Assembly (NCBI GenBank): GCA_937139405.1
Contig: CAKZPV010000002.1
Coordinates: forward strand, 1 to 64,000
Source: an uncultured Nitrospirota bacterium
Lineage (GTDB): Bacteria; Nitrospirota; Nitrospiria; Nitrospirales; UBA8639
Direction: 5' to 3'
Length of the DNA: 64,000 nucleotides
The notes beneath the pieces are model-generated. The model ran no database searches and had not been told where the DNA came from. It worked only from the letters and a program-made list of their open reading frames with translations. How positions within the stretch are numbered: position 1 is the first letter of the stretch; each line of letters starts with the position of its first letter. The position numbers and the translations under genes are program-made. Positions 34,940-61,348 of this stretch are shown here, in pieces.

Positions 34940-37900
34940 CTAAGGGCATGTGGTCGTGGGCTCACCAGCCTTGCTCAGCATCAGTGGAGCAAGGGAGGCA
35001 GTGAGAACAAAGGGGCTCCTTTCAGTGTTTGAGGAGTCAGCAATGTTGTGAGCTTGTGCGGAGGAAACCAATAAAGGACTGGCAAGGAACTCACCAGGAG
35101 TTGGGGAAAGGCTATCGATTTTTGAATCGACAAATGTGCTGAAATGTCCGCCCCGCCCAGCCGCGCAACGCGCGCCATAGAGTGCAGTCACGGGGAGGGT
35201 GTCTTCGGGCAACGGTGCAATGGTCCCGCTCAAGTTTTGAATAGGCGCTTGGATAGCTACTGAGCCGCTCACGCCTAATGCTGAGGATGCATCCAACGTA
35301 CTGAAGGGATCTACTAAGACAGCATTATTGGCGACTAAAGAAATATTTCCGCCCTGACCAGCTCCGGCTTTCGCCAGAATTTGGCTGTTTTGCAGAATAA
35401 TAAAATCCGGATCTAAGTTGATGTTTCCGCCCTTTCCATCTTCCACGGAACTGGTAACCAGACTATCAGTGAGTTGAATAATGTCAGTGGCGGTAAGTTT
35501 AATATCTCCTCCATCTGCTTGAGAAGCCAAGGTTTTAATTGTACTTTTCTCAAGAACAATCGAGTTCTTGGCCTCCAAGCTAATTACACCAGCATTGCGA
35601 GCACCTAGACTTTCTGCGGTAATTAATGAGGACTCAGTGAGTCGAAGGTCTTGCCCGACATTAATGCTAAGATTCCCCGCAGTCCCATTAACCGCGTCGA
35701 CTCTTACCTCACTGTTATTCAAAGAAAAATTTTTCCCTGTGGTGATCTGAATCTGTCCCGTATTTCCTGTGGAGGCCTGTGAATCCCCAAAGAATCCCAG
35801 ACCGTTTGATGCGGCAATTTGACCATCATTTAACATCGCGATCTCATCAGCCATTACCAAAATGGTGCCCCCGGAGCCTGGTGATGTAGTACGTGAGGAG
35901 ATGACACCACCATCTTGAATTCTTAGGTCCTTCGCTCGAACAGTAATGTCCCCAGCTTTCCCTAATGCTGGGTTACCCTCATTTCCTTCCACCCGGTTAT
36001 AGACGCTAAGTGAATCGGTGGTGATGGAGGAACGCGCCAAATCGCGTGAAAAATCAAGGGTTGCGCCGCTATCAAGGAAAAAATCAATGATATCTGGGTT
36101 TACGTCTGAAATATTTATCTCATCCGCTGTGACGTCCACGGCTCCACCATTTCCAGAAGAAAATGTACGGGAATCGATCCGGCCTCCATCCTTTAGGTTT
36201 ATGGACCTAGCTTTTACTTGAACATCACCAGCATTCCCACCCCCAGGTCCCGGGAGGCTTGAATTAACAATTGATCCAACATTCAAGAAGGCAATGTTTG
36301 GATTGACAATATCAGGAATTGGAACTGGATTGCTTCCCGAAAGTACAATCTCATCAGCAACAACCTCGATTGATCCCGCATTGCCTGTGGCCACTCCGAA
36401 CGTAGATCCCACGATGGCTGAACCATTAGCAAAATCCAAAATACCAGAGAGCTGAATATTTACATTACCCCCGTCTCCCGACCCTACAGTGGCACTGCTA
36501 ATGAGGCCGGTATCCCTCATCGTTAAATTTTTTGCTATGAGGTGGAAATCTCCTCCAGGACCGTTTCCAGTCGCACTTGTAAACCCAGTAAAGTCAGTAT
36601 TACCGCCATCTGCTGGATCTTTAATTCCCACGACGAGGATATCCCTGGCCTCTACTGTTAGTGTTCCACTACTACCTCCGGTGATCCCAGGCAAGTCAGC
36701 CTTGGTCGCAATTTCTGAGCGGTTTCGAATTTCAAGGGTGTCCCTGACCGTCACTGACGCATTTCCTCCAGCCCCCGAGCCAAATCCACCGGCATCAAGG
36801 CGGGCGGCGTTCATTCTCACATTTCCAGCTGTGACAGTAAGAGTCCCACCGGGACCGCTGCTTCCAAATGAGGTTGTCGAACTAATCCGACTTTGTTTGG
36901 GACTCTCCGGATTTGAGAAATTCGGGTCTATAGAACCAGGTCTGCCTCTCATCACCAAGTCGTTGTCAACCGAAATTGTAATCGCCCCACCAGAGCCAGA
37001 CCCCTGAATTCTACTAACAACTTGTCCGCCTTCCAGTAAACTCAAGGTGCCAGCGGTGATCTCAATGTCGGCAGTTCGCCCACTAGAATCAGAAGAAGAT
37101 TGAGATCGGACCAAGGACTCTTGGTTCACCTCAATCAAATCCCCTGAAATTTTGATCAGGCCAGCGGTTCCAGGGCCATCACCGACGTCAGCAATAAGTT
37201 CAGTCTGATTTGTAAACACCGCATCTGCGGCAATATTAACCACGATCCCCACGCCGGTACCTGGTCCCTGTGTGGATGATTCTAAAATAGCGTCATCTAA
37301 CACCAGACGACCCCCACGGATTCTGATCGCACCTCCAGGTGCACCACTCGCATCTACACGAGCTCCATCGGAAACCGTGATCTGGTCAGAGCGAATACCA
37401 AGTGGCTTCATTCCACCCTGAGTCTGTTCGCCATTACGGATATTCACTGTGCTGCGAGAGGGGACGCTGGAAAAAATAATAGAGCCTCCAGAAGTACTCA
37501 CCATTCCTGCAGCGATATCTATACCTCCCCCCACGAAGGAAACAGTTTCACCAGCAGGAGCGGTCAATAGACTTCCCTCAACAGTGATAGGAGCAGGCGT
37601 TTTTTTCACAAAGCTGAGCGTGGTCGGGGAAGTCATAAACCCAAATGCTTCCGCCGGGTCCACCAACAAAATACTATCCGTACTACCGTCCAATGAGGAA
37701 TCGGAATGAAAAGCCGTACCATCTTCGAACTGAAGGAGATCAGCTGTGCTCACGGACAAGGAGCCACGAAGATCCAATGAGGCATTCTGGCCGAACAGTA
37801 CTCCAGCAGGATTCAAGAGAAAAAGATTGGCTCCATCAATTGTAGAGCGCAACATTCCATCAATATTGGAGGGGAGTCCACCCGTCACACGACTGAGAAT

Positions 37901-38197
37901 ATTGGTAATCTCGACAGGGCCATTGAAGCTGGCAATATCATTTGTGCCTACACTGAAATTTCGGAAGCTATGAAACTGATTGGTCCCAACTATGGTCCCT
38001 CCATTTATATTAAAGATGCGATCAGTTGGCACAACCTGCGTCCCTAGGCTGCTGTCCGTGGTGATTACCGAAGTGACTTGGGCCTGAGCGGCAAGAGAGA
38101 GACCATTAACACACCAGACCAAGAGAAGGAGCGAGACTAAACAATTGATCTTTCGATGGCAGAGTAGTAGATGAATGTTACTGCCCACTTTGGTCAC
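34940..38197 (-). CDS. TpsA-like haemagglutinin exoprotein 1
   Basis: The protein has 1085 residues, starting at GTG 38197 closely after GGAGG. A long basic signal peptide (about 40 residues, ending ...LSLAAQAQ) precedes the haemagglutination-activity domain: TNQFHSFRNFSVGTNDIASF, ITNILSRVTGGLPSNIDG and ANLFLLNPAGVLFG. Residues 200-950 are glycine- and asparagine-rich beta-helix repeats (such as GSGSGGAITI, GNGPGGDFHL). The C-terminal 110 residues are almost identical to the other three exoproteins here: LDASSALGVSGSVAIQAPIQ, NLSGTIAPLPEDTLPVTALY, GARCAAGRGGHFSTFVDSK and a final TTTCP. Two cysteines, in ARCAAG and TCP-COOH, could form a disulfide. TpsA proteins are secreted by an outer-membrane TpsB, which is not in this window. 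Unlike its relatives it stands alone. Confidence 0.82.
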   Translation of the reverse strand: MTKVGSNIHLLLCHRKINCLVSLLLLVWCVNGLSLAAQAQVTSVITTDSSLGTQVVPTDRIFNINGGTIVGTNQFHSFRNFSVGTNDIASFNGPVEITNILSRVTGGLPSNIDGMLRSTIDGANLFLLNPAGVLFGQNASLDLRGSLSVSTADLLQFEDGTAFHSDSSLDGSTDSILLVDPAEAFGFMTSPTTLSFVKKTPAPITVEGSLLTAPAGETVSFVGGGIDIAAGMVSTSGGSIIFSSVPSRSTVNIRNGEQTQGGMKPLGIRSDQITVSDGARVDASGAPGGAIRIRGGRLVLDDAILESSTQGPGTGVGIVVNIAADAVFTNQTELIADVGDGPGTAGLIKISGDLIEVNQESLVRSQSSSDSSGRTADIEITAGTLSLLEGGQVVSRIQGSGSGGAITISVDNDLVMRGRPGSIDPNFSNPESPKQSRISSTTSFGSSGPGGTLTVTAGNVRMNAARLDAGGFGSGAGGNASVTVRDTLEIRNRSEIATKADLPGITGGSSGTLTVEARDILVVGIKDPADGGNTDFTGFTSATGNGPGGDFHLIAKNLTMRDTGLISSATVGSGDGGNVNIQLSGILDFANGSAIVGSTFGVATGNAGSIEVVADEIVLSGSNPVPIPDIVNPNIAFLNVGSIVNSSLPGPGGGNAGDVQVKARSINLKDGGRIDSRTFSSGNGGAVDVTADEINISDVNPDIIDFFLDSGATLDFSRDLARSSITTDSLSVYNRVEGNEGNPALGKAGDITVRAKDLRIQDGGVISSRTTSPGSGGTILVMADEIAMLNDGQIAASNGLGFFGDSQASTGNTGQIQITTGKNFSLNNSEVRVDAVNGTAGNLSINVGQDLRLTESSLITAESLGARNAGVISLEAKNSIVLEKSTIKTLASQADGGDIKLTATDIIQLTDSLVTSSVEDGKGGNINLDPDFIILQNSQILAKAGAGQGGNISLVANNAVLVDPFSTLDASSALGVSGSVAIQAPIQNLSGTIAPLPEDTLPVTALYGARCAAGRGGHFSTFVDSKIDSLSPTPGEFLASPLLVSSAQAHNIADSSNTERSPFVLTASLAPLMLSKAGEPTTTCP

Positions 38198-44170: not shown

Positions 44171-45736
44171 ATGCCTACCCCATCAGATAATAGAGCGCAG
44201 CTATTAGGGCCCAAACCTACTGCCAGCCCGTTTCTCATACGTCTTAACCAAGAAACCAACTGTCGGGCCTTTTTGCAACTCATTCGAGAGGAAGCGTGCC
44301 GGCGATTGGAGGCGGAACTGGCAAGTGTGTTTCTTTTAGATCAGAAAAAACACGAGTTATGGTTTCCGTTACCTGAAGATGGGAAATACTTGCGGTTGGA
44401 TGCGCGATTGGGCCTAGCAGGGACCTGCGTGTCGACGGGAGAAATCGTGAATGTGAGTGATGTTCAATCCGATGACCGGTTTTTCTCTGGAATCGATCTT
44501 CATACGAAGCGGCGAACACGGACATTGTTAGCGGTTCCTCTTCGGTTGCCAACTGGAGAGATATTTGGCGTCTTTGAAGCGGTGAATAAAAAGGGCAAAG
44601 ATTTTTCTGCGCGAGATGAACGACGGGCTCAAGCCTTCGTGGAGGAAATCTCTATTCCGCTTCAGAGATTCCAGCGCACGGAGCAACTGCAGCATGAGCG
44701 TCAGCTATTGGAAGAAGAAAATGTGCAATTATGGAAAGAGGTCGAAGGTCGGTTTTCGACACAAAAACTGATTGGGAATAGCCTCCCCATGCAACGGTTA
44801 GTACGAGTCATCGATCAAATACGGGATAGTTCGGTGGATGTCCTGATTACAGGAGAAAACGGGACGGGCAAAGAATTAGTCGCCCAGGCGATTCACTTTT
44901 CGAGTCCGAGGGGACGCAATCCGTTTATTGCCATCAACTGTGCCGCATTGCCAGATAACCTCATTGAAAGTGAACTGTTTGGGATTGGCCGGGGTACAGC
45001 CACAGGAGTGGATGCTCGGATTGGAAAATTCGTCCAAGCGAATAAAGGGACATTGTTTTTAGATGAAATCGGAGACTTGGGGCTCAAGGCGCAAGCCAAA
45101 ATCTTGCGTGTTCTGGAGGAACGCATTGTGGTGCCAGTGGGGGAACGAACTCCGATTCCCGTGAATATTCGTGTGTTGGCGGCCACCAATACCAACCTTG
45201 AAGACGCGATTAAGAATGGGACGTTTCGGGAAGATCTCTACTATCGATTGAAAGTCGTGCATATTCAGACTCCAGCCCTGCGGGAGATTGCGGTTGATAT
45301 TCAATTGCTCGCAAATTACTTTTTGGATCGATATTGTCAAGAAATGAATAAACCTCGAAAAAAGATTGACTCAGCTGCGATGCGCCGCTTAGTGGAATGT
45401 GACTGGCCAGGCAATATGCGGCAATTAGGGAATGAAATGAAACGGCTGGCCGTCATGGTGCGAGGGGCGACCATCAAGGAAGATATGCTTGATGTCGCCA
45501 TCAAACGTAGCGCTCAAAGCCCGCAAAAGACGATCAGTCTGGACGGAAGAAGTCTTCCAGCGATGCTTGGCGAAATTGAAGAGCAAATCATCAAGGATGC
45601 CTTAGTCACGTGCCAATTCAACCAAGTCCGGACGGCGGAACATCTGGGTATCAGCCGACAAGGCCTGATCAAAAAAATCAACCGCTATCATATCCGCGTC
45701 AAAGAACTGCGTGACGAGGTATACGAATCTCTCTGA
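44171..45736 (+). CDS. GAF-AAA+-Fis enhancer-binding regulator (sigma-54 type)
   Basis: The protein has 521 residues. The GAF domain (about 35-165) carries NKKGKDFSARDE at 139-150, that is NK-x4-F-x3-DE, the NKFDE motif of cyclic-nucleotide-binding GAF domains in phosphodiesterases and cyanobacterial cyclases. The AAA+ domain follows: Walker A GENGTGKE (228-235) and Walker B GTLFLDE (293-299). The loop that normally reads GAFTGA is here GTATGV (275-280). The C-terminal Fis-type helix-turn-helix is in QVRTAEHLGISRQGLIKKIN. The end of the gene and its downstream region are duplicated at 51713. Confidence 0.85.
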   Translation: MPTPSDNRAQLLGPKPTASPFLIRLNQETNCRAFLQLIREEACRRLEAELASVFLLDQKKHELWFPLPEDGKYLRLDARLGLAGTCVSTGEIVNVSDVQSDDRFFSGIDLHTKRRTRTLLAVPLRLPTGEIFGVFEAVNKKGKDFSARDERRAQAFVEEISIPLQRFQRTEQLQHERQLLEEENVQLWKEVEGRFSTQKLIGNSLPMQRLVRVIDQIRDSSVDVLITGENGTGKELVAQAIHFSSPRGRNPFIAINCAALPDNLIESELFGIGRGTATGVDARIGKFVQANKGTLFLDEIGDLGLKAQAKILRVLEERIVVPVGERTPIPVNIRVLAATNTNLEDAIKNGTFREDLYYRLKVVHIQTPALREIAVDIQLLANYFLDRYCQEMNKPRKKIDSAAMRRLVECDWPGNMRQLGNEMKRLAVMVRGATIKEDMLDVAIKRSAQSPQKTISLDGRSLPAMLGEIEEQIIKDALVTCQFNQVRTAEHLGISRQGLIKKINRYHIRVKELRDEVYESL

Positions 45737-45924
45737 GTGTGAACGTTTCTCGCCACGCGAGTTGCGTATTGTTCCTTCCCGTTGACATTATTTCGGTCCT
45801 TCTCTAGTCAGCCCGCCTGTAGCGAGCGGGGATCTCTCCGCAGCATCCTTCAGAAACCTTTACTTGCCATATTGTGGTTCGAAATCTTCGATGAGAGGGT
45901 TCTCCTAAAATTAAGGTGTTTTCG

Positions 45925-45959
45925 TATCCATTAAGATACAAAAGTTATCTAATGCGATA
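45925..45959 (+). promoter_or_regulatory. Tandem upstream activator sites, copy A
   Basis: Two dyads TATC-N6-GATA occur at 45925-45938 (TATC cattaa GATA) and 45946-45959 (TATC taatgc GATA). They are 21 bp apart centre to centre, two helical turns, as expected for enhancer-binding protein sites. They lie 137 bp upstream of the -24 element and 190 bp downstream of the regulator's stop. Flanking bases extend the symmetry (TTCG before, CGAA after). They could also pair as a hairpin in RNA, so a terminator or other role is possible. Confidence 0.6.
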
Positions 45960-46078
45960 CGAAAAAGAGCCTTTCTCTCTCTGTTGGCGCCTTCAGTAGA
46001 TTGGAAGCGACGCAGCACAAGGCTTTTGAGTATGGGTGTTAGTCACGGAAAAAAAGAATGAGCATGTTTCCTTCAATA

Positions 46079-46092
46079 GGCACCGCAATTGC
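46079..46092 (+). promoter_or_regulatory. Sigma-54 -24/-12 promoter, copy A
   Basis: AGGCACCGCAATTGCTTT gives GG (46079-46080) and GC (46091-46092), 10 bp apart, matching the consensus GGCAC-N5-TTGC. Transcription would start near 46104, giving a leader of about 390 nt before the peptidase gene at 46497. Confidence 0.62.
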
Positions 46093-46496
46093 TTTAATTG
46101 TAATTATGTCTTTATTGGAGTGGTAAATTTTCAAACAAAATCGATCTGCGAAGGAGGGTAGTGGAGAAAGAAAAGGGTACAGAAAAGAGGAATAGGGACA
46201 TTTAAAACCAAGCCATACCTATTATTTATATTCGTTCGTATTTTCGGTATTGGCAAATGGCATTATCAAGAGTATACCCCCTCCTTTCCCCTTTCATTCA
46301 ATAAAAACAGCGCAGGGAATTCCAACGTTTGCTGGCAAGAGTTTTAGTCTATAGAGCAAACTAGTATTGGAGAACCTTTCTATTTGAGACATTAGATAAA
46401 AGAATCTTGTTTTTTTCGTTTCTTACGTCAAAACATTCTTTTGTCAGGCAAATATCATAAGGGCGAAACTTTTTTCAATGTAATCTTAAGGACAAA

Positions 46497-47195
46497 ATGG
46501 GAAAGACAATGATTAGAACTTTGGTAATGATTCTATTTTTATTGTCGGCATGTACGAAAGTAGATGTGAGCGTTCACAGAGGTGTCGAGGAAGGGTTGCC
46601 CCCTCTTCGATGCAACCCCAATAAATTATTATTGGAGGTGGACTCTCATCCGCAGGAAACGGGTGCGTGGTGTTGGGTGGCAAGCGCCCAAACAATTCTG
46701 GACTATCATGGGATTGGCAAAGCTAACGAACAATGTGATTTTGTGACGCAATCACGAGGGGATAAATTTCAGGGTGCATCCAATAATGCGAGGTTTTGCT
46801 GCCAGAAAGCCATTAACGTCAACGTTGAAAGTAGAGACACTTTTAAGAAAGTCTGTCAAACCGGTGGCTGGCCCGAAGAGGTATTTGGCAAGTCCAATCC
46901 TCCAATATCATCAACTCGAACGGAAAAGTATCATGTATTGACGTGGGATGCCTTACGTCACCAGCTTTGTGAGTTTGGTCCATTTATCTATGCAGTCGAA
47001 TGGTCTCACGGTGGCATACATACTGGAGTCGTTTCAGGCTACCACACAACGCAGGTTCAAGGATCGGAGAAATTTGTGGATGTAGATGAGCATTATGGCG
47101 CTGGTTTTTTAGTAATTCCTTACGAAACGTTCGTGAGAGATCCTGGAACGCACACCCATTATTTGGACATCATTGATATTCAGCCAATCTTCTAA
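46497..47195 (+). CDS. Papain-like cysteine peptidase lipoprotein (AvrRpt2/C39-like)
   Basis: The protein has 232 residues, with ATG 46497 after AAGGACAAA. The lipobox FLLSAC puts the mature start at Cys19, followed by TKVDVSV. The catalytic cysteine is in QETGAWCWVASAQTILDYHG (C59), the WCWxAxxQ motif of AvrRpt2/C70 and C39-like peptidases. A candidate histidine is in GGIHTGVVSGYH (H175). Several other cysteines (FCCQK, FKKVCQTGG, HQLCEFG) suggest disulfides. It is the first gene behind the proposed sigma-54 promoter A. Its target may be an exoprotein or host/competitor protein, which is inference. Confidence 0.72.
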   Translation: MGKTMIRTLVMILFLLSACTKVDVSVHRGVEEGLPPLRCNPNKLLLEVDSHPQETGAWCWVASAQTILDYHGIGKANEQCDFVTQSRGDKFQGASNNARFCCQKAINVNVESRDTFKKVCQTGGWPEEVFGKSNPPISSTRTEKYHVLTWDALRHQLCEFGPFIYAVEWSHGGIHTGVVSGYHTTQVQGSEKFVDVDEHYGAGFLVIPYETFVRDPGTHTHYLDIIDIQPIF

Positions 47196-48754: not shown

Positions 48755-51715
48755 ATGATTCAAAATTTCTTTCAGTTGCCAAAAAGCAAGCATTCTACCT
48801 CAACGAGGAAAATGCAAATCGGAGTGGTTTTTCTCTTGGCCACCTATATTTGCTTAGGTAAAACAACTTTTGGTCAAGTTGCGTCGATTACTTCATCTGG
48901 ACTTGATACAAATGTAGTAAGCGGGATAGATATTGGGAACGGAGTGATTAAAATTGACATTGTTGGAGGGACGAGACCAGATGGAGGCTCCAATCTTTTT
49001 CATAGCTTTGGAGAATTTAATGTTCAAGAAAACCATATTGCTAACTTTTTGAACGATTCTGGTCTGCCGACTTCAAATATTCTTAGCCGGGTCACCGGTG
49101 GCAACCCCTCCAACATTCTTGGCACAATTCAAACCGAAGGATTCGGCAATGCCAACTTGTTCCTCATGAATCCAGCTGGGATTGTCTTTGGCTCAGATGC
49201 CACTTTGAATGTGGGCGGTGCCACCTATTTTACCACGACTGATTACCTAAGGCTTGCCGACGGAGTACAGTTTACCGCGGTGCCGAGTGCTCAGGATGTC
49301 ATGCTAAGCGTTGCGCCTGTTGCTGCATTTGGGTTTCTCGGCACTAATCCTGGCGCGATTTCGGCTGAGAGGAGTGCCTTATCTGTATCAGAAAGAGAAA
49401 CGCTTTCGCTCGTTGGGGGAAATGTCACCATCCGTAGCGGTCTCAATGCACCTGGTGGTCAGATCGTCTTAGTCAGTGTGGCCTCTCCTGGCGAAGTGTT
49501 GGCTGACACCTACGCTAGCGCTTCCAACGTGAACGGAGAGTCGTTCGCCACGATGGGGAATATTACCCTGTCGGAAGGAACCACGCTGGATGTTTCGGGT
49601 GATGCGGCTGGCACCGTTATCATCCAAGGTGGTGAGCTAATGATCACCAATGCCACGATCTCTGCCAATACAGGAGAAACTTCAGGAACAGCAGTAGCGA
49701 TTGATATCAATATTGAGGGGAACATATCCATCACTAGCGATACCGCATCAGTTATGACCGCAAAGGCAACTGGGACGGGGGATTCTGGTGAAGTAAATCT
49801 TCAATCAGGAAATTTAACCGTGGAATCTTTTATTTCAGATGATGTCACGGCTATAATCGATACCAGTAATTCTGGGGTCGGTAATAGCGGACGCGTTCAT
49901 CTAAAGACTGAAGATGGGAATCTCATTGTTGATGGTGGACCTTCAAGAGCCATCTTTATTGAGAGCGGATCTGGAGGAGACGGAAATGGTGGGAACGTTA
50001 CGATCACCGGAGGAAATATTGAATTTATCAGTACCAAAATTAGCACTGGAGATTTTAATCTGAGTGGTTTGGGCGCCGGTGGCACACTTGAAGTTCACGC
50101 AAATTCGATTAAAGCAGATGGAGCTTTTATAAATACAACTTCCAAAAATGGACGGGGTGGTGATCTTTTTTTTGAAGCAGAAAACATATCCCTTGTAGGT
50201 GCCAATATTGGGGTTCTCAGCCTATTAGGGGAAAGCCAAATAAACTTTGATGCCGAACATTTTGTAATGGATCAAAGCACTATCTTAAACCAAACAGCTT
50301 TGGCAGAAGGCGGAGGGATTACTATCAGTGCGAGGTCTGTGAATTTAATGAACCACAGTCAAGTTGCTAGTCAAACATTTGGAGATGGGGATGCTGGTCC
50401 AATACGAATTTTTGCAACGGATCACGTCACATTTTCTGATGATGGCACTGCCTTATTTGCTCCAGACCCGGGTGGGCTATTCACAAATTCCTTTGGTGAT
50501 CCAGGCCTTGGGATGAATGGAAATGCCGGTGCGATTGAAATTGATTCTCCCATGTTTACGATGACGGGTGGGACCCGTTTAAACAGCACCACAGAAAGTA
50601 ATGGACGAGGTGGAGACGTGAAGGTGATGGCCCAAAAGGTTCTTATTGATGGGCAAAGAAAGTCCGAAGTTTTTTCAGAAGCATTTGGACTAGGTAGTAC
50701 TCGTGCGAGTGGGATTTATACCCGAACGGTTGGAGGGTTCTGTAGTGGGTTCTGCGGAGACTCAGGGGATATTTTAATTGAGGGGGAATCGTTCGAGTTG
50801 GCCAATGGGGCTGTTCTAGATAGTGGGACAACAAGCAATGGCCGAGGTGGGGCGATTTTCGTGGGCATGTCCCAAAATATCTCTCTAGCCGGAACCCTGG
50901 ATGATGGCACTCCTGGTGGAATATTTAGCCGTTCTATAGACAGTACTCTAGATCCCGGCCAAGTCAATAAGGTGGCTACTATTTTCTTGGACGCAGGGAA
51001 GTCATTCTTTGTAAAAGATGGTGCTAATGTTTCTGCCAGCAGTCTAGGACCCGCTAATGCTGGCGATATTCAACTCACAGCGACCGATGTCATTCTGCTT
51101 GATGGGGCAACGGTAACCACTGAAGCAGCGCAAGCGTCAGGGGGGAACATCGAATTGAAAGCCGAAGAACTCATTCGATTAAACAAGAGTACTATTGCCA
51201 GTTCCGTGCAAGGTGATGAGAACACGGTTGGTGGCGATATTGATCTGGACCCGGAGTTTATTATTCTGCAGAATAGCCAAATCTTGGCGAATGCCGTTGA
51301 AGGGCAAGGTGGCAATATTTCCTTGGTAGCTACCAATGCGGTTTTGGTTGATCCATTTAGTAGGTTAGATGCGTCCTCAGCCTTAGGCGTGAGTGGCTCG
51401 GTGGATATCCAAGCCCCCATTCAAAATTTGAGTGGCACTATTGCCCCATTGCCGGAAGACACGGTTCCTGTAACCGCTCTGTATAGCGCGCGTTGTGCAG
51501 CCGGACAAAGTGGACATTTCAGTACCTTTGTCGATTCAAAAGCTGACAGTCTCTCCCCAACACCAGGTCGGTTACTTGCCAGTCCTTTGTTATCTCAAGC
51601 GGTTCAGGCTGTAGCTAATACTTCCAATGGCCTTCAAAACTCAGTCGTGCTCACTGCGTCGATTGCACCCATGTTACTTGGCCAAACTGATGTGCCTGCG
51701 ACGGCCTGCCCGTAG
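48755..51715 (+). CDS. TpsA-like haemagglutinin exoprotein 2
   Basis: The protein has 986 residues. An extended signal peptide (KMQIGVVFLLATYICLGKTT) precedes the TPS/haemagglutination domain: SNLFHSFGEFNVQENHIANF, NILSRVTGGNPSNILGTI, ANLFLMNPAGIVFGSDATLN. Glycine-rich beta-helix repeats follow to about residue 870. The C-terminal module, LVDPFSRLDASSALGVSGSV, IQAPIQNLSGTIAPLPEDTV and SARCAAGQSGHFSTFVDSK, ends ATACP. The TAG stop coincides with the first three bases of the duplicated block copy B. It closes the first lipoprotein cassette. Confidence 0.85.
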   Translation: MIQNFFQLPKSKHSTSTRKMQIGVVFLLATYICLGKTTFGQVASITSSGLDTNVVSGIDIGNGVIKIDIVGGTRPDGGSNLFHSFGEFNVQENHIANFLNDSGLPTSNILSRVTGGNPSNILGTIQTEGFGNANLFLMNPAGIVFGSDATLNVGGATYFTTTDYLRLADGVQFTAVPSAQDVMLSVAPVAAFGFLGTNPGAISAERSALSVSERETLSLVGGNVTIRSGLNAPGGQIVLVSVASPGEVLADTYASASNVNGESFATMGNITLSEGTTLDVSGDAAGTVIIQGGELMITNATISANTGETSGTAVAIDINIEGNISITSDTASVMTAKATGTGDSGEVNLQSGNLTVESFISDDVTAIIDTSNSGVGNSGRVHLKTEDGNLIVDGGPSRAIFIESGSGGDGNGGNVTITGGNIEFISTKISTGDFNLSGLGAGGTLEVHANSIKADGAFINTTSKNGRGGDLFFEAENISLVGANIGVLSLLGESQINFDAEHFVMDQSTILNQTALAEGGGITISARSVNLMNHSQVASQTFGDGDAGPIRIFATDHVTFSDDGTALFAPDPGGLFTNSFGDPGLGMNGNAGAIEIDSPMFTMTGGTRLNSTTESNGRGGDVKVMAQKVLIDGQRKSEVFSEAFGLGSTRASGIYTRTVGGFCSGFCGDSGDILIEGESFELANGAVLDSGTTSNGRGGAIFVGMSQNISLAGTLDDGTPGGIFSRSIDSTLDPGQVNKVATIFLDAGKSFFVKDGANVSASSLGPANAGDIQLTATDVILLDGATVTTEAAQASGGNIELKAEELIRLNKSTIASSVQGDENTVGGDIDLDPEFIILQNSQILANAVEGQGGNISLVATNAVLVDPFSRLDASSALGVSGSVDIQAPIQNLSGTIAPLPEDTVPVTALYSARCAAGQSGHFSTFVDSKADSLSPTPGRLLASPLLSQAVQAVANTSNGLQNSVVLTASIAPMLLGQTDVPATACP

Positions 51716-51846
51716 TCACGTGCCAATTCAACCAAGTCCGGACGGCGGAACATCTGGGTATCAGCCGACAAGGCCTGATCAAAAAAATCAACCGCTATCA
51801 TATCCGCGTCAAAGAACTGCGTGACGAGGTATACGAATCTCTCTGA
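51713..51846 (+). pseudogene. 3' fragment of the GAF-AAA+-Fis regulator gene
   Basis: 134 bp identical to the end of the regulator gene (45603-45736) follow exoprotein 2. They encode the Fis helix-turn-helix region but have no start of their own, and the first TAG serves as the exoprotein stop. This is a by-product of the duplication. Confidence 0.85.
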
Positions 51847-52034
51847 GTGTGAACGTTTCTCGCCACGCGAGTTGCGTATTGTTCCTTCCCGTTGACATTA
51901 TTTCGGTCCTTCTCTAGTCAGCCCGCCTGTAGCGAGCGGGGATCTCTCCGCAGCATCCTTCAGAAACCTTTATCTGCCATATTGTGATTCGAAATCTTCG
52001 ATGAGAGGTTTTCCCTAGAATTAAAGTGTTTTCG

Positions 52035-52069
52035 TATCCATTAAGATACAAAAGTTATCTAATGTGATA
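52035..52069 (+). promoter_or_regulatory. Tandem upstream activator sites, copy B
   Basis: The two TATC-N6-GATA dyads are conserved (52035-52048 and 52056-52069), again 21 bp apart and 137 bp before the -24 element. Only one base in the second spacer differs from copy A (taatgt versus taatgc). Confidence 0.6.
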
Positions 52070-52188
52070 CGAAAAAGAGCCTTCGGCTCTCTGTTGTGGT
52101 CATCAGTCGATTTAATTCAAGGCATCACAATGCTGTCGAGAAAGGGCGCTAGCCACGGAAAAAAAGAATGAGCATGTTTCCTTCAATA

Positions 52189-52202
52189 GGCACCGCAATT
52201 GC
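52189..52202 (+). promoter_or_regulatory. Sigma-54 -24/-12 promoter, copy B
   Basis: GG at 52189-52190 and GC at 52201-52202 in AGGCACCGCAATTGCTTT, identical to copy A. The distance to ATG 52605 is again about 390 nt after the predicted start site. Confidence 0.62.
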
Positions 52203-52604
52203 TTTAATTGTAATTATGTCTTATTGGAGTAATAATTCGCCAAATAAACCAAACTTTCAGAAGGAGGGTAGAAGAGAAAGAAGAGCGTGAGAAAAAGGGG
52301 AAGTGGAGTTATTGAAAATGGAGTAATACCTCTTATTTATATTTTATTCCGGTTTTGCTTAGTACGGCATCATAAATGTGCGCTCCATCCTCTCTTCTTC
52401 TCCCTAACAAAATCCTCATTAGAGCTCTAGCTTTTCAAGGGAATACCTAGAGATCACAGTAGCGAGGAAAAACGGAAACACTCAGAACGAGTCAATCGTT
52501 TCAAGGGCAAACTTATGGTCTGTTCTAGGTTTGGCTTGTATGGAAATTCCGTATCAATAAGATCCAATGTAATAAAAGTTATAAAACTATTATAGGGTTG
52601 ACCA

Positions 52605-53414
52605 ATGAAATTTTTTATCGAAGGTAAACAATTTTTGTTCTACATTTGTCTAGTCAGTCTTGGCGTTACAGGATGTGTCCAGGTTGGTGTAAATGGTGGG
52701 TTAACCGGTGACTCCTCTAATTGTGAGTTTGATCGCAATACTGGTCAAGTGATTTGTGCGGACTCTTGTGAAAAAACCTATGCACATACAGTGACTGTTG
52801 CCAAATCTGAGAGTTTAGACGTGTTAACTCCCGAGGTCGTGAATAGCATATTAGACGAAGGCCAAAGTGCAGCACTGGAGGATGAAGGATTTCCAGGGTC
52901 TCCTGGTGTTGGGTGCCAACTTTCCCTGAAATTATCTCCCGGTGGATTAAACATAATTATTGCCCCAAATACGGATGGAGGTACGGATACAGACGGGGAT
53001 GGATCAACTGACTTGACCCAATCTCAGGGTGGTGAAGGAATGTTTGAATCGAGACAAGATGATACGGTAAACACGGAGTGGGAATATATTACCCTGATGC
53101 AAAGACCGGAATGGGTGAAGGCGGTAAAGTCACTTTACGTCTGTGGGCTGGTAGGCCAGGGAATAGTCATTCGAAACTATCCGTCCCATTTCTCAGGTTG
53201 CTCGAGTGATTATCCGCACAAGCTCTCCATTGTCGAATACGATGGGCTACTGCCTATTGCTTATCATGGATCACTGTGGCTTCACGAAATAGGGCATACA
53301 AGGGGGAATAAGGATACGTGGGAACAAGATGATAGTTGGGTCATGTATGGAGCACCTTCAGAGAATTCTAAAAAATTGTCTTGTCGAGAATGCGCGAGAT
53401 TTCTTTTGCCATGA
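52605..53414 (+). CDS. Metzincin-type zinc metallopeptidase lipoprotein
   Basis: The protein has 269 residues. The lipobox LGVTGC gives a mature start at Cys24, followed by VQVGVNG. The catalytic motif HEIGHTRGNKD (227-237) is HExxHxxGxxD, and the following VMYG (Met247) is a Met-turn. This makes a metzincin with aspartate as the third ligand, as in snapalysin. NTDGGTDTDGDGSTDL (122-137) is a likely calcium-binding loop. Several cysteines may form disulfides. It is the first gene of the second cassette, in the place that the cysteine peptidase has in the first. Confidence 0.75.
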   Translation: MKFFIEGKQFLFYICLVSLGVTGCVQVGVNGGLTGDSSNCEFDRNTGQVICADSCEKTYAHTVTVAKSESLDVLTPEVVNSILDEGQSAALEDEGFPGSPGVGCQLSLKLSPGGLNIIIAPNTDGGTDTDGDGSTDLTQSQGGEGMFESRQDDTVNTEWEYITLMQRPEWVKAVKSLYVCGLVGQGIVIRNYPSHFSGCSSDYPHKLSIVEYDGLLPIAYHGSLWLHEIGHTRGNKDTWEQDDSWVMYGAPSENSKKLSCRECARFLLP

Positions 53415-55135: not shown

Positions 55136-58100
55136 ATGGGTTTTAGAATGGGACATCGTTGGTCTGGCCATTCAAGGTTTAGCAATGTGGTACTGTTTGC
55201 CATTTTAACCTTATATTGGAGCCCTCTTTTGACGAGTCAAGCTCAGGTGACGACTGGGATTACATCCGATGGCACCTTAGGTACGGTGGTAACGCAGATG
55301 GGAAACCTTCATGAGATCACGGGCGGAACGCGGCCAGGGAATGGCCCCAATCTCTTTCATAGCTTCGGTCAACTTAATGTGGGGGCAGCAGATATTGCCG
55401 ATTTCCGTAATGATGCTGGTTTCCCAACAGAGAATATCCTGAGTCGTGTCACGGGCGGTAATCCCTCCCAAATTTTTGGATCCATCCAAACGACGAATTT
55501 TGGTAACGCAAATCTTTTCCTGCTAAATCCCGCAGGCATTGTTTTTGGACCGGATGCCTCCTTGAATGTGGGCGGGGGCACTCACTTTACCACAGCCGAT
55601 TATTTGCGACTCAGCGATGGCGTCCAATTCACGGCTCTTCCTAGCTCGCAGGATACGTTGCTGAATGTGGCGTCGGTCGCGGCATTTGGTTTTCTTGAAG
55701 AGAACCCTGCGTCGATTTCGATTGAAGGGAACATCTTATCCGTTGCAGAAGGCCAAACGCTTTCGTTTGTGAGTGGAGACATCACGATCAGCAGCAGCCT
55801 CAATGCACCTGGCGGAAAGATAGCCATAGCCAGTGTGGCCTCTCCGGGCGAAATGCTTGCCGACACCTATGCGAATGCACCCAATGTCAACGGGCAGTCA
55901 TTCGGGGGGATGGGCAACATTTCACTGTTAGAAGGAGCAAGGCTGGATGTTTCCGGAGATGCGGGTGCGGCTGTCGTCATTCGTAGTGGTCGACTTATGG
56001 TCGATGCCTCAACCATCTCTGCCAATACCACGGGACCGGCAAGCGGAGCGCTGAGGACTCTAGGAGTTGAAGGAGCAGGAATTGATATAAAGACTACGGG
56101 AGACTTGCTTGTCGACAATGCTGCTGTCATTGAGGCGAATGTTTTGGGGGGTTCCATGGCTGGCAGAGACATTATCTTGAAGGCCGGCCAGAACTTTGAG
56201 ATACGAGATAATAGCATAGTTCAGACGCAAGCACTCGGAGGGTCAGGGAACGCTGGAAATATCGAGGTAAATGCCAACAAGGTCCTGATTGCGAAATCCT
56301 TTCAGGGTCTTCAGAGCTTGGCGTTTGGTGCTTTTTTTGGAAATTCAACGGGAAATGCTGGGAATGTCCACGTAACCGCAAATGAGTTGCAGATGACTGG
56401 AGGAGGTATAGCGGCTACGACTGTATTCGGCCTAGGGCAGGCAGGGAATATTGCCGTAAGTGTCCAGGGAGGAGATATTTTTCTTGGTAGCAGTGTTATC
56501 TCCGCGAACAGTTTTGGATCGAGCGGTAATGCAGGCCATGTCCAAATCGCAGCAGCCAAGTTGACCCTTACGAATCTTGCTAACATTGAATCGCGTTCTT
56601 TCGGTGGTGCGACCGGGAACGCTGGTAGCGTCAGTGTCGTAGTAAATGGGCAACTGAATATACGGGAGAGAGCTTCAATAACTGTCCGGTCTGACCTCAC
56701 AGGAGCGGAAGGTGACCTGACCATTGCGGCCGAGGACATTGTCATCACTGGCATTCGAGAAGGGATGTTCCCGTTATTTGGGCAAGTTGGTGGGGATTTT
56801 ACCGGCTTTAGCACGAGAACCAGCAATGCGCGGGGTGCGGACATGCGTATTATGGCTCACAATCTCCAGGTGACAGATAAAGGCATTATTAGTGGGGCCA
56901 CAGATGGATCTGGATCATCCGGGAACATTGTAATTAATCTTTCTGAGGGGTTAAGGATTGCTGATGGTGGAGAAATTAGCGCGATTACTACAGGAAGCGG
57001 CTCCGCCGGCCAAATCGAGCTAGTTGCCGATACTGTCGAGTTGTCTGGAAAAAATGCCTTTTCCTTTACTGAGACCGATGGCACTGATGCTTTAGCCTTT
57101 GCCCGTATTTCTACTCAGACTGATGCCAGTGGAAATGGTGGAACAATTGGGATAACCGCTAAACAGATCAATATACTTGATGGAGGGTCCTTGACTTCAA
57201 ATTCTCTTGGTGAGGGAAATGGAGGGAATATTCGTTTAGGAGCTGACACGATATTGATTGCTGGTGAGAATCCAGCGAAGACGGGATTTGGGCTTGATCC
57301 GCGTTCATCTATTACCACTGAAAACGAGGGTCGCATTCCGGGACCGGAAGCCACAGGAATTGCCGGAGATATCTTTCTCGATGCGGGAAATACTTTGAAT
57401 CTTGATCGTGGCCTGGTCAGCGCTGAATCTGGGAGCGCTGGTGCTGGAGGTAGTATACAAGTGAATGCTGGAGACCTGTCTCTTTTTAATAATTCCTCGA
57501 TCACGGCTAGGAGTACCTCTACGGGAAACGCGGGCAATATCAATCTTTTCGCAAACAACACGATTCTGTTCGACAATAGTACTTTGACGACCGAATCCAC
57601 GGAGTCTTCAGGTGGCAACATTGATCTGAGAGCCCGAGAACTCTTTCGTATGAACAGCAGCACCCTTGCTAGCTCGGTGCAAGGCGATGCGAACACGATC
57701 GGCGGCAATATTAGTGTGGACCCCGAATTTATCATTCTGCAAAATAGTCAAATTTTGGCCAATGCCGTAGAAGGCCAAGGTGGCAATATTTCCTTGGTTG
57801 CCACCAATGCAGTCTTAGTGGATCCTTTTAGTAGGTTGGATGCATCCTCGGCCTTAGGCGTCAGTGGCTCCGTGGATATCCAAGCCCCCATCCAAAATTT
57901 GAGCGGCACCATTGCGCCGTTGCCCGAAGACACGGTTCCTGTAACCGCCTTGTATAACGCGCGTTGTGCCGCTGGGCAAGATGGACATTTCAGTACCTTT
58001 GTGGATTCAAAGACCGATAGCCTTTCTCCGATTCCCGGTTGGTTCCTTCCCAGTCCTTTGCCAAGGCCTTCGCCCCAGGCCAATTCCGTTGCGGATGCAT

Positions 58101-58192
58101 CCGCCAGTCTCGTAAGCCCAGTCGTGCTTACTGCGTCCATTGCTCCCCTTGTGCTGGGCCATGTCGACGAGCCCGTGACTGCTTGCCCGTAA
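55136..58192 (+). CDS. TpsA-like haemagglutinin exoprotein 3
   Basis: The protein has 1018 residues. After the signal region (VVLFAILTLYWSPLLTSQAQ) the TPS domain reads PNLFHSFGQLNVGAADIADF, NILSRVTGGNPSQIFGSI and ANLFLLNPAGIVFGPDASLN. Beta-helix repeats fill the middle. The C-terminal module from about residue 880 (LQNSQILANAVEGQGGNISL, LVDPFSRLDASSALGVSGSV, PEDTVPVTALYNARCAAGQD) is nearly identical in protein to exoprotein 2 but has many synonymous DNA changes. It ends VTACP. It closes the second cassette. Confidence 0.85.
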   Translation: MGFRMGHRWSGHSRFSNVVLFAILTLYWSPLLTSQAQVTTGITSDGTLGTVVTQMGNLHEITGGTRPGNGPNLFHSFGQLNVGAADIADFRNDAGFPTENILSRVTGGNPSQIFGSIQTTNFGNANLFLLNPAGIVFGPDASLNVGGGTHFTTADYLRLSDGVQFTALPSSQDTLLNVASVAAFGFLEENPASISIEGNILSVAEGQTLSFVSGDITISSSLNAPGGKIAIASVASPGEMLADTYANAPNVNGQSFGGMGNISLLEGARLDVSGDAGAAVVIRSGRLMVDASTISANTTGPASGALRTLGVEGAGIDIKTTGDLLVDNAAVIEANVLGGSMAGRDIILKAGQNFEIRDNSIVQTQALGGSGNAGNIEVNANKVLIAKSFQGLQSLAFGAFFGNSTGNAGNVHVTANELQMTGGGIAATTVFGLGQAGNIAVSVQGGDIFLGSSVISANSFGSSGNAGHVQIAAAKLTLTNLANIESRSFGGATGNAGSVSVVVNGQLNIRERASITVRSDLTGAEGDLTIAAEDIVITGIREGMFPLFGQVGGDFTGFSTRTSNARGADMRIMAHNLQVTDKGIISGATDGSGSSGNIVINLSEGLRIADGGEISAITTGSGSAGQIELVADTVELSGKNAFSFTETDGTDALAFARISTQTDASGNGGTIGITAKQINILDGGSLTSNSLGEGNGGNIRLGADTILIAGENPAKTGFGLDPRSSITTENEGRIPGPEATGIAGDIFLDAGNTLNLDRGLVSAESGSAGAGGSIQVNAGDLSLFNNSSITARSTSTGNAGNINLFANNTILFDNSTLTTESTESSGGNIDLRARELFRMNSSTLASSVQGDANTIGGNISVDPEFIILQNSQILANAVEGQGGNISLVATNAVLVDPFSRLDASSALGVSGSVDIQAPIQNLSGTIAPLPEDTVPVTALYNARCAAGQDGHFSTFVDSKTDSLSPIPGWFLPSPLPRPSPQANSVADASASLVSPVVLTASIAPLVLGHVDEPVTACP

Positions 58193-58246: not shown

Positions 58247-61200
58247 ATGTCATTTATTTTCCCCACTATTCAATTCCTACTTCAGAGCCGCGCCCGTATT
58301 TGCTCTTTTCTGAGAAAGATCTGGCGCGGCATATGGGTTCCTGCCTACCTCTCGACAGTCGTTTTTCCTTTACAAAGCTACGCCCAAGTCGCCACGGCCA
58401 TCATTCCGGATGCCACACTGCCGACGAATTCTTCTGTCACTCAGATAGCTGAAACGTTTCATGTCACCGATGGAACTTCTGTTGGAAGCAATCTTTTCCA
58501 TAGTTTCGACACGTTTCATGTGGGGACCGAAGATACGGCCAATTTTGTAAATCCTGGGGGAATAGACAATATTCTTAGTCGTGTAACTGGTGGGGCTGTT
58601 TCGAATATTTTCGGCACCCTGCAATCAGAGTCGTCAGCGAATGTGTTTTTTCTGAATCCTAGTGGCGTGGTCTTTGGGCCAACGGCGCAACTCAATGTGA
58701 ATGGGTCATTCCATGTGAGCACTGCGGATTCTATCAATCTAGGTGAAGGTCTTGGAGCTGGGATCTTTAGCGCCACTGATCTTGTTAGTGACATTCTCAC
58801 CGTGGCCCCTCCGTCTGCTTTTGGGTTTTTGGAATCGGTCGCCCGTCCCCCTGAAGTCACCGTCGATCAGAGTCTTCTCCTCGTTCCCTCCGGCGAAACC
58901 TTGTCTATCGTGGGAGGCAATATAGATATTCTCGGTGCGACACTCGTGGCCCCAAATGGGAACATCAATCTGGCCAGCGTGACCTCGATTGGTGAAGTAC
59001 CAGTGCGACCTGCAGATCTTCAAGTAGAAAACTTCGAGAGTTTAGGGAACATTAACATTACTGAGTCTCCACTACTTGACACGAGCGGTGCAGAAGGTGG
59101 GACTGTGGTGATTCGAGGCGGGCGTCTGCTCGTCGGCGGTTCAACCCTTGTTTCTAGTACGACGCTAGGAGCTGAAAACGGATCCACTCCAGGAATTGAT
59201 CTCGAGGTGGCGGAAGACATACATCTTGAAAATGGGGCAGTTATTCTTACAGACACCCAAGGAGAAGGGAATGCGAGAAATATTTTTCTGAAGACTGAAA
59301 TTCTGGAGCTGAATGAGTCCGTTGTTTTGTCGAATTCGACCTCTAAGGGTAATGCTGGTAGCGTTGGGATTGACGTTGACCAGTTATCCCTGACGAAAGG
59401 AGCCTTGATCGGTAGCAGTTCAGATGCCAGTGGTAAAGCAGGAGTTGTAACTGTCCAAGCGACTGACTCAGTCTCCGTTCTGGGCAGAGACAGTGCGGGC
59501 GCGCGAAGCCTGATTTTCAGTACAACTCGCGGAGATGGGGATGCCGGAGGCATTAGCCTGTCCACCAGGGCCTTACGTTTGGATGCCGGAGTCATATCGG
59601 GTGGCACTACAGCAGGCGGCGGTGGTGGAGATATCGGAATCACGGTTGATCAGTTAACCCTAACCGGGGGTGCTTTAATCGAAAACACCACGTTTGGGGA
59701 AGGCAAAGGAGGAACTGTAGCTGTGGAGGCGAAGGAATCGCTCTCTATTTCAGGTGAGACGGATGATGGATTTCCCAGTTCGATTCTCAGTCTGGCATTT
59801 GACAAAGGAGATGCAGGAAATATCTTTCTTTCGAGCCGAAACCTGACAATAGATGGTGGAACCATTTTGGCTACATCATCTGATACAGGCAACGCTGGCA
59901 GCATTGAGCTGCGAGCTGGACAGGTGACTCTGATCAATGGAGCCCGTATCGACAGCAGCACATTTGGTTTCGGTGAGGGAGGCACCGTGATTGTCAATGC
60001 CAGCGAAGCAGTTTCCATTTCGGGGAGCAACAGTGAAGACGCGTTCAGCCAGGTTCGAAGTGTTTCATTAGGCTTCGGACCCGAACAAGCAGGCCGTGTA
60101 TCCATAATCAGTCCCCTTGTGGTTCTTGGTGAGGGAGGAATTTTGGCCGCGAATTCGTTTGGAGAGGCTGGGGCGGGGGATATTATGCTGAATGTTGGAC
60201 GCTTGATACTCACGGGCGAGGCTTCAATTACGAACAGTACTCTAGCTACCAAAGGCGGAGGAACGGTGACGATTCTGGCCAGCGAATCGGTGTCAGTTTT
60301 GGATAAAGGGAGAGTGACGAGTTCTACTTTCAACGTTGGGGAGGCAGGACACATTGATATTTCTACACCAGTGTTCCTCTTGACTGGAGGTGGAGCGATC
60401 CAAGCCGTGACTAGTAGCAGTGGAGATGGGGGAAACATCTTGATCCGTGTTGGAGAATTCACCATTGCAGATGGTGCCTTTATTGACACCAGCACTTTTG
60501 GAGTAGGCCGTGGTGGGACGGTAAACATTTTGGCAACAGGTGGCGTATCATTGGACGGGCCTGGGACCGGTGTGACCAGTTCAGCTAGTGGGGAGGGTCC
60601 CGGGGGAGCCGTCAATATTCAGGCGGAGCAGGCTATTCAACTCAAGGCTGGGGCTGTAGTGAAGGTGGATAGCGAAGGATTGGGTAATGCAGGCGATATC
60701 CTGCTTCAATCTGGGGATATCATACAATTGGTCAATAGTTCTATCACCACTGGAGCGGAACATGCATCAGGAGGAAATATCAAACTTGCCGCACCTAATA
60801 TTATCCAATTACAGGAGAGTACCCTGGAAAGTTCGGTTCAGGGTGGAACCGAGACAACCGGGGGAAATATCGACATCGATCCGCAGTTCGTTATTATTCA
60901 AGGAAGTAATATTCTGGCGCGAGCAACGTTGGGTAATGGAGGGCAGATTAACATTGAGGGAAATGTTGTACTTGTTGATCCATTTTCTAGGATCGATGCC
61001 TCTTCCGCATTTGGCGTGAGTGGGTCGGTGGACATCCAAGCGCCCATTCAAAATTTGAGCGGTACGATTGCTCCGTTGCCGGAGGACACGGTTCCCGTGG
61101 TTGCCCTCTATAGCGCGCGTTGTGCCGCTGGAGAAGGTGGACATTTTAGTACCTTTGTGGATTCAAAGGCCGATAGCCTTTCTCCGACTCCTGGTCAGTT

Positions 61201-61348
61201 CCTTGCCAGTCCTTTGTTGGTTTCTTCCACGCAGACTTCCATCATTACTGATGTTTCAAATGTTCATGGAAGCCCCATCCTCCTCTCGGCGTCTATAACA
61301 CCCTTGTTTGTGGGTCAAACTGGGGAATCAACGACCGCCTGCCCGTAG
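58247..61348 (+). CDS. TpsA-like haemagglutinin exoprotein 4
   Basis: The protein has 1033 residues and starts 54 bp after exoprotein 3, with no lipoprotein genes of its own. The signal region is YLSTVVFPLQSYAQ preceded by basic residues. The TPS domain reads SNLFHSFDTFHVGTEDTANF, NILSRVTGGAVSNIFGTL and ANVFFLNPSGVVFGPTAQLN. The repeat region is richer in GEGGT/GDGG units than in the others. The C-terminal module is the most diverged of the four before VDPFSRIDASSAFGVSGSVD, then near-identical (IQAPIQNLSGTIAPLPEDTV, SARCAAGEGGHFSTFVDSK) and ends TTACP. Confidence 0.84.
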   Translation: MSFIFPTIQFLLQSRARICSFLRKIWRGIWVPAYLSTVVFPLQSYAQVATAIIPDATLPTNSSVTQIAETFHVTDGTSVGSNLFHSFDTFHVGTEDTANFVNPGGIDNILSRVTGGAVSNIFGTLQSESSANVFFLNPSGVVFGPTAQLNVNGSFHVSTADSINLGEGLGAGIFSATDLVSDILTVAPPSAFGFLESVARPPEVTVDQSLLLVPSGETLSIVGGNIDILGATLVAPNGNINLASVTSIGEVPVRPADLQVENFESLGNINITESPLLDTSGAEGGTVVIRGGRLLVGGSTLVSSTTLGAENGSTPGIDLEVAEDIHLENGAVILTDTQGEGNARNIFLKTEILELNESVVLSNSTSKGNAGSVGIDVDQLSLTKGALIGSSSDASGKAGVVTVQATDSVSVLGRDSAGARSLIFSTTRGDGDAGGISLSTRALRLDAGVISGGTTAGGGGGDIGITVDQLTLTGGALIENTTFGEGKGGTVAVEAKESLSISGETDDGFPSSILSLAFDKGDAGNIFLSSRNLTIDGGTILATSSDTGNAGSIELRAGQVTLINGARIDSSTFGFGEGGTVIVNASEAVSISGSNSEDAFSQVRSVSLGFGPEQAGRVSIISPLVVLGEGGILAANSFGEAGAGDIMLNVGRLILTGEASITNSTLATKGGGTVTILASESVSVLDKGRVTSSTFNVGEAGHIDISTPVFLLTGGGAIQAVTSSSGDGGNILIRVGEFTIADGAFIDTSTFGVGRGGTVNILATGGVSLDGPGTGVTSSASGEGPGGAVNIQAEQAIQLKAGAVVKVDSEGLGNAGDILLQSGDIIQLVNSSITTGAEHASGGNIKLAAPNIIQLQESTLESSVQGGTETTGGNIDIDPQFVIIQGSNILARATLGNGGQINIEGNVVLVDPFSRIDASSAFGVSGSVDIQAPIQNLSGTIAPLPEDTVPVVALYSARCAAGEGGHFSTFVDSKADSLSPTPGQFLASPLLVSSTQTSIITDVSNVHGSPILLSASITPLFVGQTGESTTACP

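Follow-up and report, generated by a model that had tools for sequence, protein, structure and literature searches.

The 64,000-nucleotide stretch of DNA analyzed here (the window), from an uncultured Nitrospirota bacterium, carries two copies of a tandem dyad, TATC-N6-GATA-N7-TATC-N6-GATA, that is very probably the upstream activating sequence (enhancer) of a sigma-54 regulon of the Nitrospirales worked by a bEBP. Exact copies occupy positions 45925-45959 and 52035-52069. The first consists of TATCCATTAAGATA (45925-45938) and TATCTAATGCGATA (45946-45959), and the second of TATCCATTAAGATA (52035-52048) and TATCTAATGTGATA (52056-52069), all of them strandless features. Dyad centers within a pair are 21 bp apart, or two helical turns. 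The center of the first pair (45942) lies 137 bp upstream of the GG of a -24/-12 sigma-54 promoter, AGGCACCGCAATTGCT, on the plus strand at 46078-46093 (118 bp from the dyad edge); the promoter-site search placed the second copy of AGGCACCGCAATTGCT at 52188-52203 on the same strand, with the same geometry. The original prediction, which put two dyads 21 bp apart in both copies at 137 bp before the -24 element, was thus accurate in position and distance. The window contains six TATC-N6-GATA dyads against 0.71 expected, a number reached in none of 100 shuffles; these shuffles, together with the reversed-pattern controls given below, rule out a chance origin of the pairs.

A duplicated block in the window

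Self-comparison of the window places the two pairs in copies of one block of about 635 nt (45600-46232 and 51710-52343, plus strand) with 89% identity; the enhancer, the promoter and a relic of the 3' end of a regulator gene were moved to the second position. The first approximately 260 nt are identical between copies, including the 3' approximately 130 nt of the regulator gene (45600-45736 and 51710-51846), whose relic directly follows a TPS gene. The copies differ most in two stretches, one from the dyads to the -24 element and the other past the promoter. The earlier statement that the sequence around the dyads has diverged therefore holds only in part. The second copy also contains a perfect hairpin after the dyads (AGAGCC-TTC-GGCTCT, 52076-52100); read on the minus strand, a T run would come after it. 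The first copy has this hairpin in broken form.

Because both copies stem from one recent duplication, they are weak evidence when taken alone, and the element was tested elsewhere in the genome and in relatives. The decisive evidence is the presence of the same pair outside the block, in the organism's own genome, its family and a sample of its phylum, where the control pattern gave no match.

Distribution and consensus of the paired dyads

Pattern searches and retrieved sequence stretches provide the genome statistics. The organism's own genome (4.46 Mb) has six exact pairs and no match to the reversed-pattern control, in answer to the suggestion that it be scanned for more such pairs before sigma-54 promoters, and the pair recurs across the order. 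Within the family, 30 of 49 genomes have exact pairs (1 to 12 each; control 0). The phylum sample yielded pairs in 43 of 246 genomes, again with a control of 0 throughout; these 43 comprise 6 of the 16 genomes sampled from the organism's own family, 32 of 62 from a sister family and 5 from elsewhere. When the gap was left free (0 to 28 bases), nearly all listed pairs had N7 (21 bp center to center), and the others were some N8 (22 bp), one N6 and one N9. Nearly all pairs are therefore dyad-symmetric sites in helical phase, at 21-22 bp.

At the base level, each dyad has the consensus GTATC-YRWWYR-GATAC. A search for single dyads in a strict version found none in G016 or in any of the 14 genomes of genus g2, but all other genomes of the family have it; the control gave a single match in the 49 genomes. 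One-mismatch pairs in G014 proved to be low-complexity repeats and not the element. The pairs avoid coding sequence: only 3 of 96 fall inside ORFs of at least 150 aa, which cover 75% of bases, and the other 93 are non-coding.

Association with sigma-54 promoters

Sites of the -24/-12 type accumulate at one distance from the pairs. In the family set (62 pairs), 28 sites scoring at least 16 lie 100-140 bp from the pair, compared with a background of about 0.24 sites per 20-bp bin more than 200 bp away; 39 of the 62 pairs have a site scoring at least 15.5 at 85-155 bp, versus 2 in a control window. A second set of 40 pairs, drawn almost entirely from other families and with no part in forming the hypothesis, shows 24 sites at 60-140 bp over a background of 0.17 per 20-bp bin. 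The promoters point away from the dyads in 72 cases and towards them in 7, and the median distance from dyad edge to -24/-12 site is 112 bp. In an alignment of the intergenic region 3' of the regulator from seven genomes, both dyads and a GGCAYYRCAATTGC-like promoter (in the window, the one at 46078-46093) are kept while the remainder drifts.

This fits the promoter expected within about 80-200 bp of a sigma-54 enhancer and directed away from it; a minority of pairs have no recognizable -24/-12 site. The most consistent pair without a canonical site lies between histidine-kinase and REC-PAS genes (L086, L089, L094, L077), about 52 bp from a conserved degenerate sequence, TAAGYCTnnAAATTGCA. The many bEBPs with GAFTGA and the -24/-12 sites suggest that RpoN is present in the genome.

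The spacing, the promoter pile-up, the orientation and the non-coding location together indicate that the pairs very probably serve as the upstream activating sequences of a single sigma-54 regulon in the Nitrospirales. The proposal that they are enhancer sites of a sigma-54 activator is supported by their recurrence, fixed 21-22 bp spacing, avoidance of coding sequence and clustering with promoters. From this arrangement we infer the following mechanism. A Fis-type sigma-54 activator would bind as two dimers, one on each of the palindromes of 14-16 bp (GTATC-YRWWYR-GATAC), which are separated by two turns and so share a helical face. Looping would then bring the activator to the sigma-54 RNA polymerase that waits at the -24/-12 promoter, at a distance of about 110-120 bp, and the activator would open the closed complex through ATP hydrolysis. 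The same enhancer would serve a regulon across the Nitrospirales, its second copy in the window having arisen through duplication of the first.

Predicted target genes

The two window promoters are predicted to drive genes from 46497 onward and from 52605 onward. The first gene after promoter 1 (46497-47195, plus strand), a likely target, encodes a predicted secreted protein or lipoprotein whose match to the papain-like Peptidase_C70 is weak, with a score that only just reaches the curated cut-off. Its counterpart after promoter 2 (52605-53414, plus strand), also a likely target, encodes a predicted lipoprotein for which no Pfam family was found. Downstream of the 46497 gene lies a gene for a TPS-domain protein, at 48755. 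Four large proteins with this two-partner secretion domain are encoded in the window (48755-51715, 55136-58192, 58247-61348 and, on the minus strand, 34940-38197); the 3' ends of their genes are alike at 76-84% nucleotide identity, which suggests recombination or gene conversion among the four.

Candidate activator

The most likely activator, a choice held with somewhat better than even confidence, is not the regulator encoded next to the first pair (44171-45736) but an NtrC-family response regulator encoded elsewhere in the same genome (G000, C31:169130-170701). This REC-AAA+-HTH protein has the helix LQRTYLSRLIK and an intact GAFTGA; its REC, AAA+ and Fis HTH domains were read from the G019 ortholog, and with these features it qualifies as a bEBP. 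It is found in 28 of the 30 dyad-bearing family genomes, the exceptions in the ortholog search being G035 and G037, and its gene lies about 1-10 kb from dyads in genera g1, g7, g9 and g10. In the class-level outgroups G206 and G165, which have only two pairs and one pair, respectively, a pair with a -24/-12 site stands immediately upstream of the LQRTYL regulator gene, with another gene next (for a PAS-domain protein in G206), an arrangement that has the layout of an autoregulated signaling operon. Against this candidate, G016 and 9 of the 14 g2 genomes retain the protein but lack sites; the G016 copy reads GAYTGA. Its best NCBIfam match is AtoC, to which it does not belong at 407 bits against a cut-off of 714.

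Other bEBPs were tried and rejected. PrsR is unsuitable as the binder in motif and profile, and L152-type bEBPs also occur in motif-free genomes. The L126-type bEBP (with an FhlA-like HTH) has a fair phylogenetic profile, yet G019 and G023 lack close orthologs of it, and none of its retrieved loci has a dyad within 1.5 kb.

The adjacent regulator

The gene adjacent to the first pair (44171-45736, plus strand) encodes a GAF-AAA+-Fis regulator in which Walker A and B are present. Its sigma-54-contacting L1 loop reads GTATGV in place of GAFTGA, so that it does not qualify as a bEBP by that loop. GAFTGA was found in none of the orthologs examined; across the family these have GTATGV, GTATDV or GVATGV loops and keep Walker A and B. 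In most reported cases, changes in the GAFTGA motif abolish the activation of sigma-54 (PMC3162934), and NtrC proteins lacking it are regulators of sigma-70 promoters (PMC10274813). The regulator and its orthologs are probably a clade of sigma-54-blind bEBP homologs, and the protein is predicted to be incapable of sigma-54 activation. The loop, and the lack of GAFTGA in orthologs, suggest that the activator is probably another protein.

It is nevertheless conceivable, if rather unlikely, that this regulator binds the dyads, either activating the downstream sigma-54 promoter or repressing by competition. In several genomes of g1, pairs sit just 3' of its orthologs, and it has a Fis HTH. However, its loop makes activation, though not competitive binding, unlikely; 9 of the 30 dyad-bearing genomes lack a close ortholog, and one is present in G016, a genome without sites.

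Other binders and whole-site symmetry

A factor other than a bEBP, such as an RhpR-like response regulator of the OmpR/PhoB type, could bind the dyads and make their proximity to sigma-54 promoters secondary. RhpR of Pseudomonas syringae binds a single inverted repeat, GTATC-N6-GATAC (PMC4191427), the same dyad as here, and the minority of pairs without a -24/-12 site would fit such a binder. This reading is improbable because -24/-12 sites accumulate at a single distance in both of the independent sets, the tandem spacing is strict, and a bEBP gene has a layout resembling autoregulation.

That the dyads form an RNA hairpin, for example the terminator of the regulator gene, is highly improbable. 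The two copies in the window do fold well as RNA (z -5.1 and -5.5), but the A+T-rich stem gives no terminator call where an intrinsic terminator has a G+C-rich stem and then a T tract, and 6 of 63 pairs have T5 within 15 nt (57 are without a T tract). The TATC/GATA letters are conserved rather than covarying, and pairs are also found between genes or upstream of them, in every case preceding the -24 element. The terminator had been named beforehand as the alternative that would overturn the enhancer reading, and it fails on T tracts, on locations and on the place of the dyads before the -24 element.

The folding of the window copies can be traced to the N6 spacers of paired dyads, which complement each other. 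This complementarity, the other feature that a hairpin would share, is above chance among 108 distinct pairs from many genomes, with 336 matches versus 273 and a maximum of 307 in 2000 re-pairings that ignore relatedness; direct identity between left and right spacers is not raised in these 108 pairs. The whole 35-bp element thus tends towards a single palindrome. Such complementarity can reflect a dimer of dimers on one long palindrome, for which the two inverted 20-bp sites of AtoC offer a parallel (PMC3118216), or mutational correction between inverted repeats. A more speculative possibility, to be entertained only tentatively, is that two Fis-type AAA+ regulators share the enhancer, an active NtrC-type protein and a sigma-54-blind GAF competitor or lock beside its own gene, with a dimer of dimers recognizing the 35 bp as a single palindrome. 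If true, a regulator that has lost its contact with sigma-54 would persist at sigma-54 enhancers in the role of a built-in antagonist, which would be a new control layer.

Relation to known systems and significance

The tandem-dyad enhancer differs from known systems that resemble it in part. RhpR sites are single and have no tie to sigma-54 in the source, whereas the dyads described here form strict tandem pairs at sigma-54 promoters. Escherichia coli AtoC (AtoSC) is, like the candidate activator, an NtrC-family response regulator that works with sigma-54, and it has two inverted 20-bp sites (PMC3118216); its upstream activating sequence is another sequence, in contrast to TATC-N6-GATA with many sites per genome and a strict consensus. 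PrsR and PEP-CTERM 'motif 1' likewise represent a bEBP regulon, recognized by a repeated motif that precedes -24/-12 sites and genes for secreted proteins (PMC1569441). Motif 1, however, is a 17-mer ending in TTTACA at about 63 nt from the promoter, while the TATC-N6-GATA pairs lie about 110-120 bp away; the pairs fall outside the PrsR regulon in both sequence and distance, and PrsR is absent from several dyad-bearing genomes. TyrR, HupR and the NtrC proteins of Rhodobacter and Caulobacter are AAA+ proteins without GAFTGA (PMC3162934, PMC10274813), as is the window regulator, which combines AAA+ Walker motifs with a Fis HTH; it differs from them in that the loop is substituted rather than deleted and that its gene lies beside sigma-54 enhancers.

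In the literature searched, neither a sigma-54 enhancer with the tandem motif or its regulon nor any paper on the motif in Nitrospira-like bacteria was found, and the motif is absent from the D. vulgaris regulome and a 2025 sigma-54 survey. The element therefore appears, from its sequence and context, to mark a previously undescribed regulon with a sigma-54 enhancer of a type already known.

Gene control in Nitrospira-like bacteria has been little studied. The element makes a regulon of secreted proteins, lipoproteins, peptidases and response regulators readable from sequence across the order, and for this putative regulon there is both a specific candidate for the activator and a precise prediction of the promoter. 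It also singles out a clade of AAA+ regulators that have probably lost contact with sigma-54 and are still encoded beside sigma-54 enhancers.
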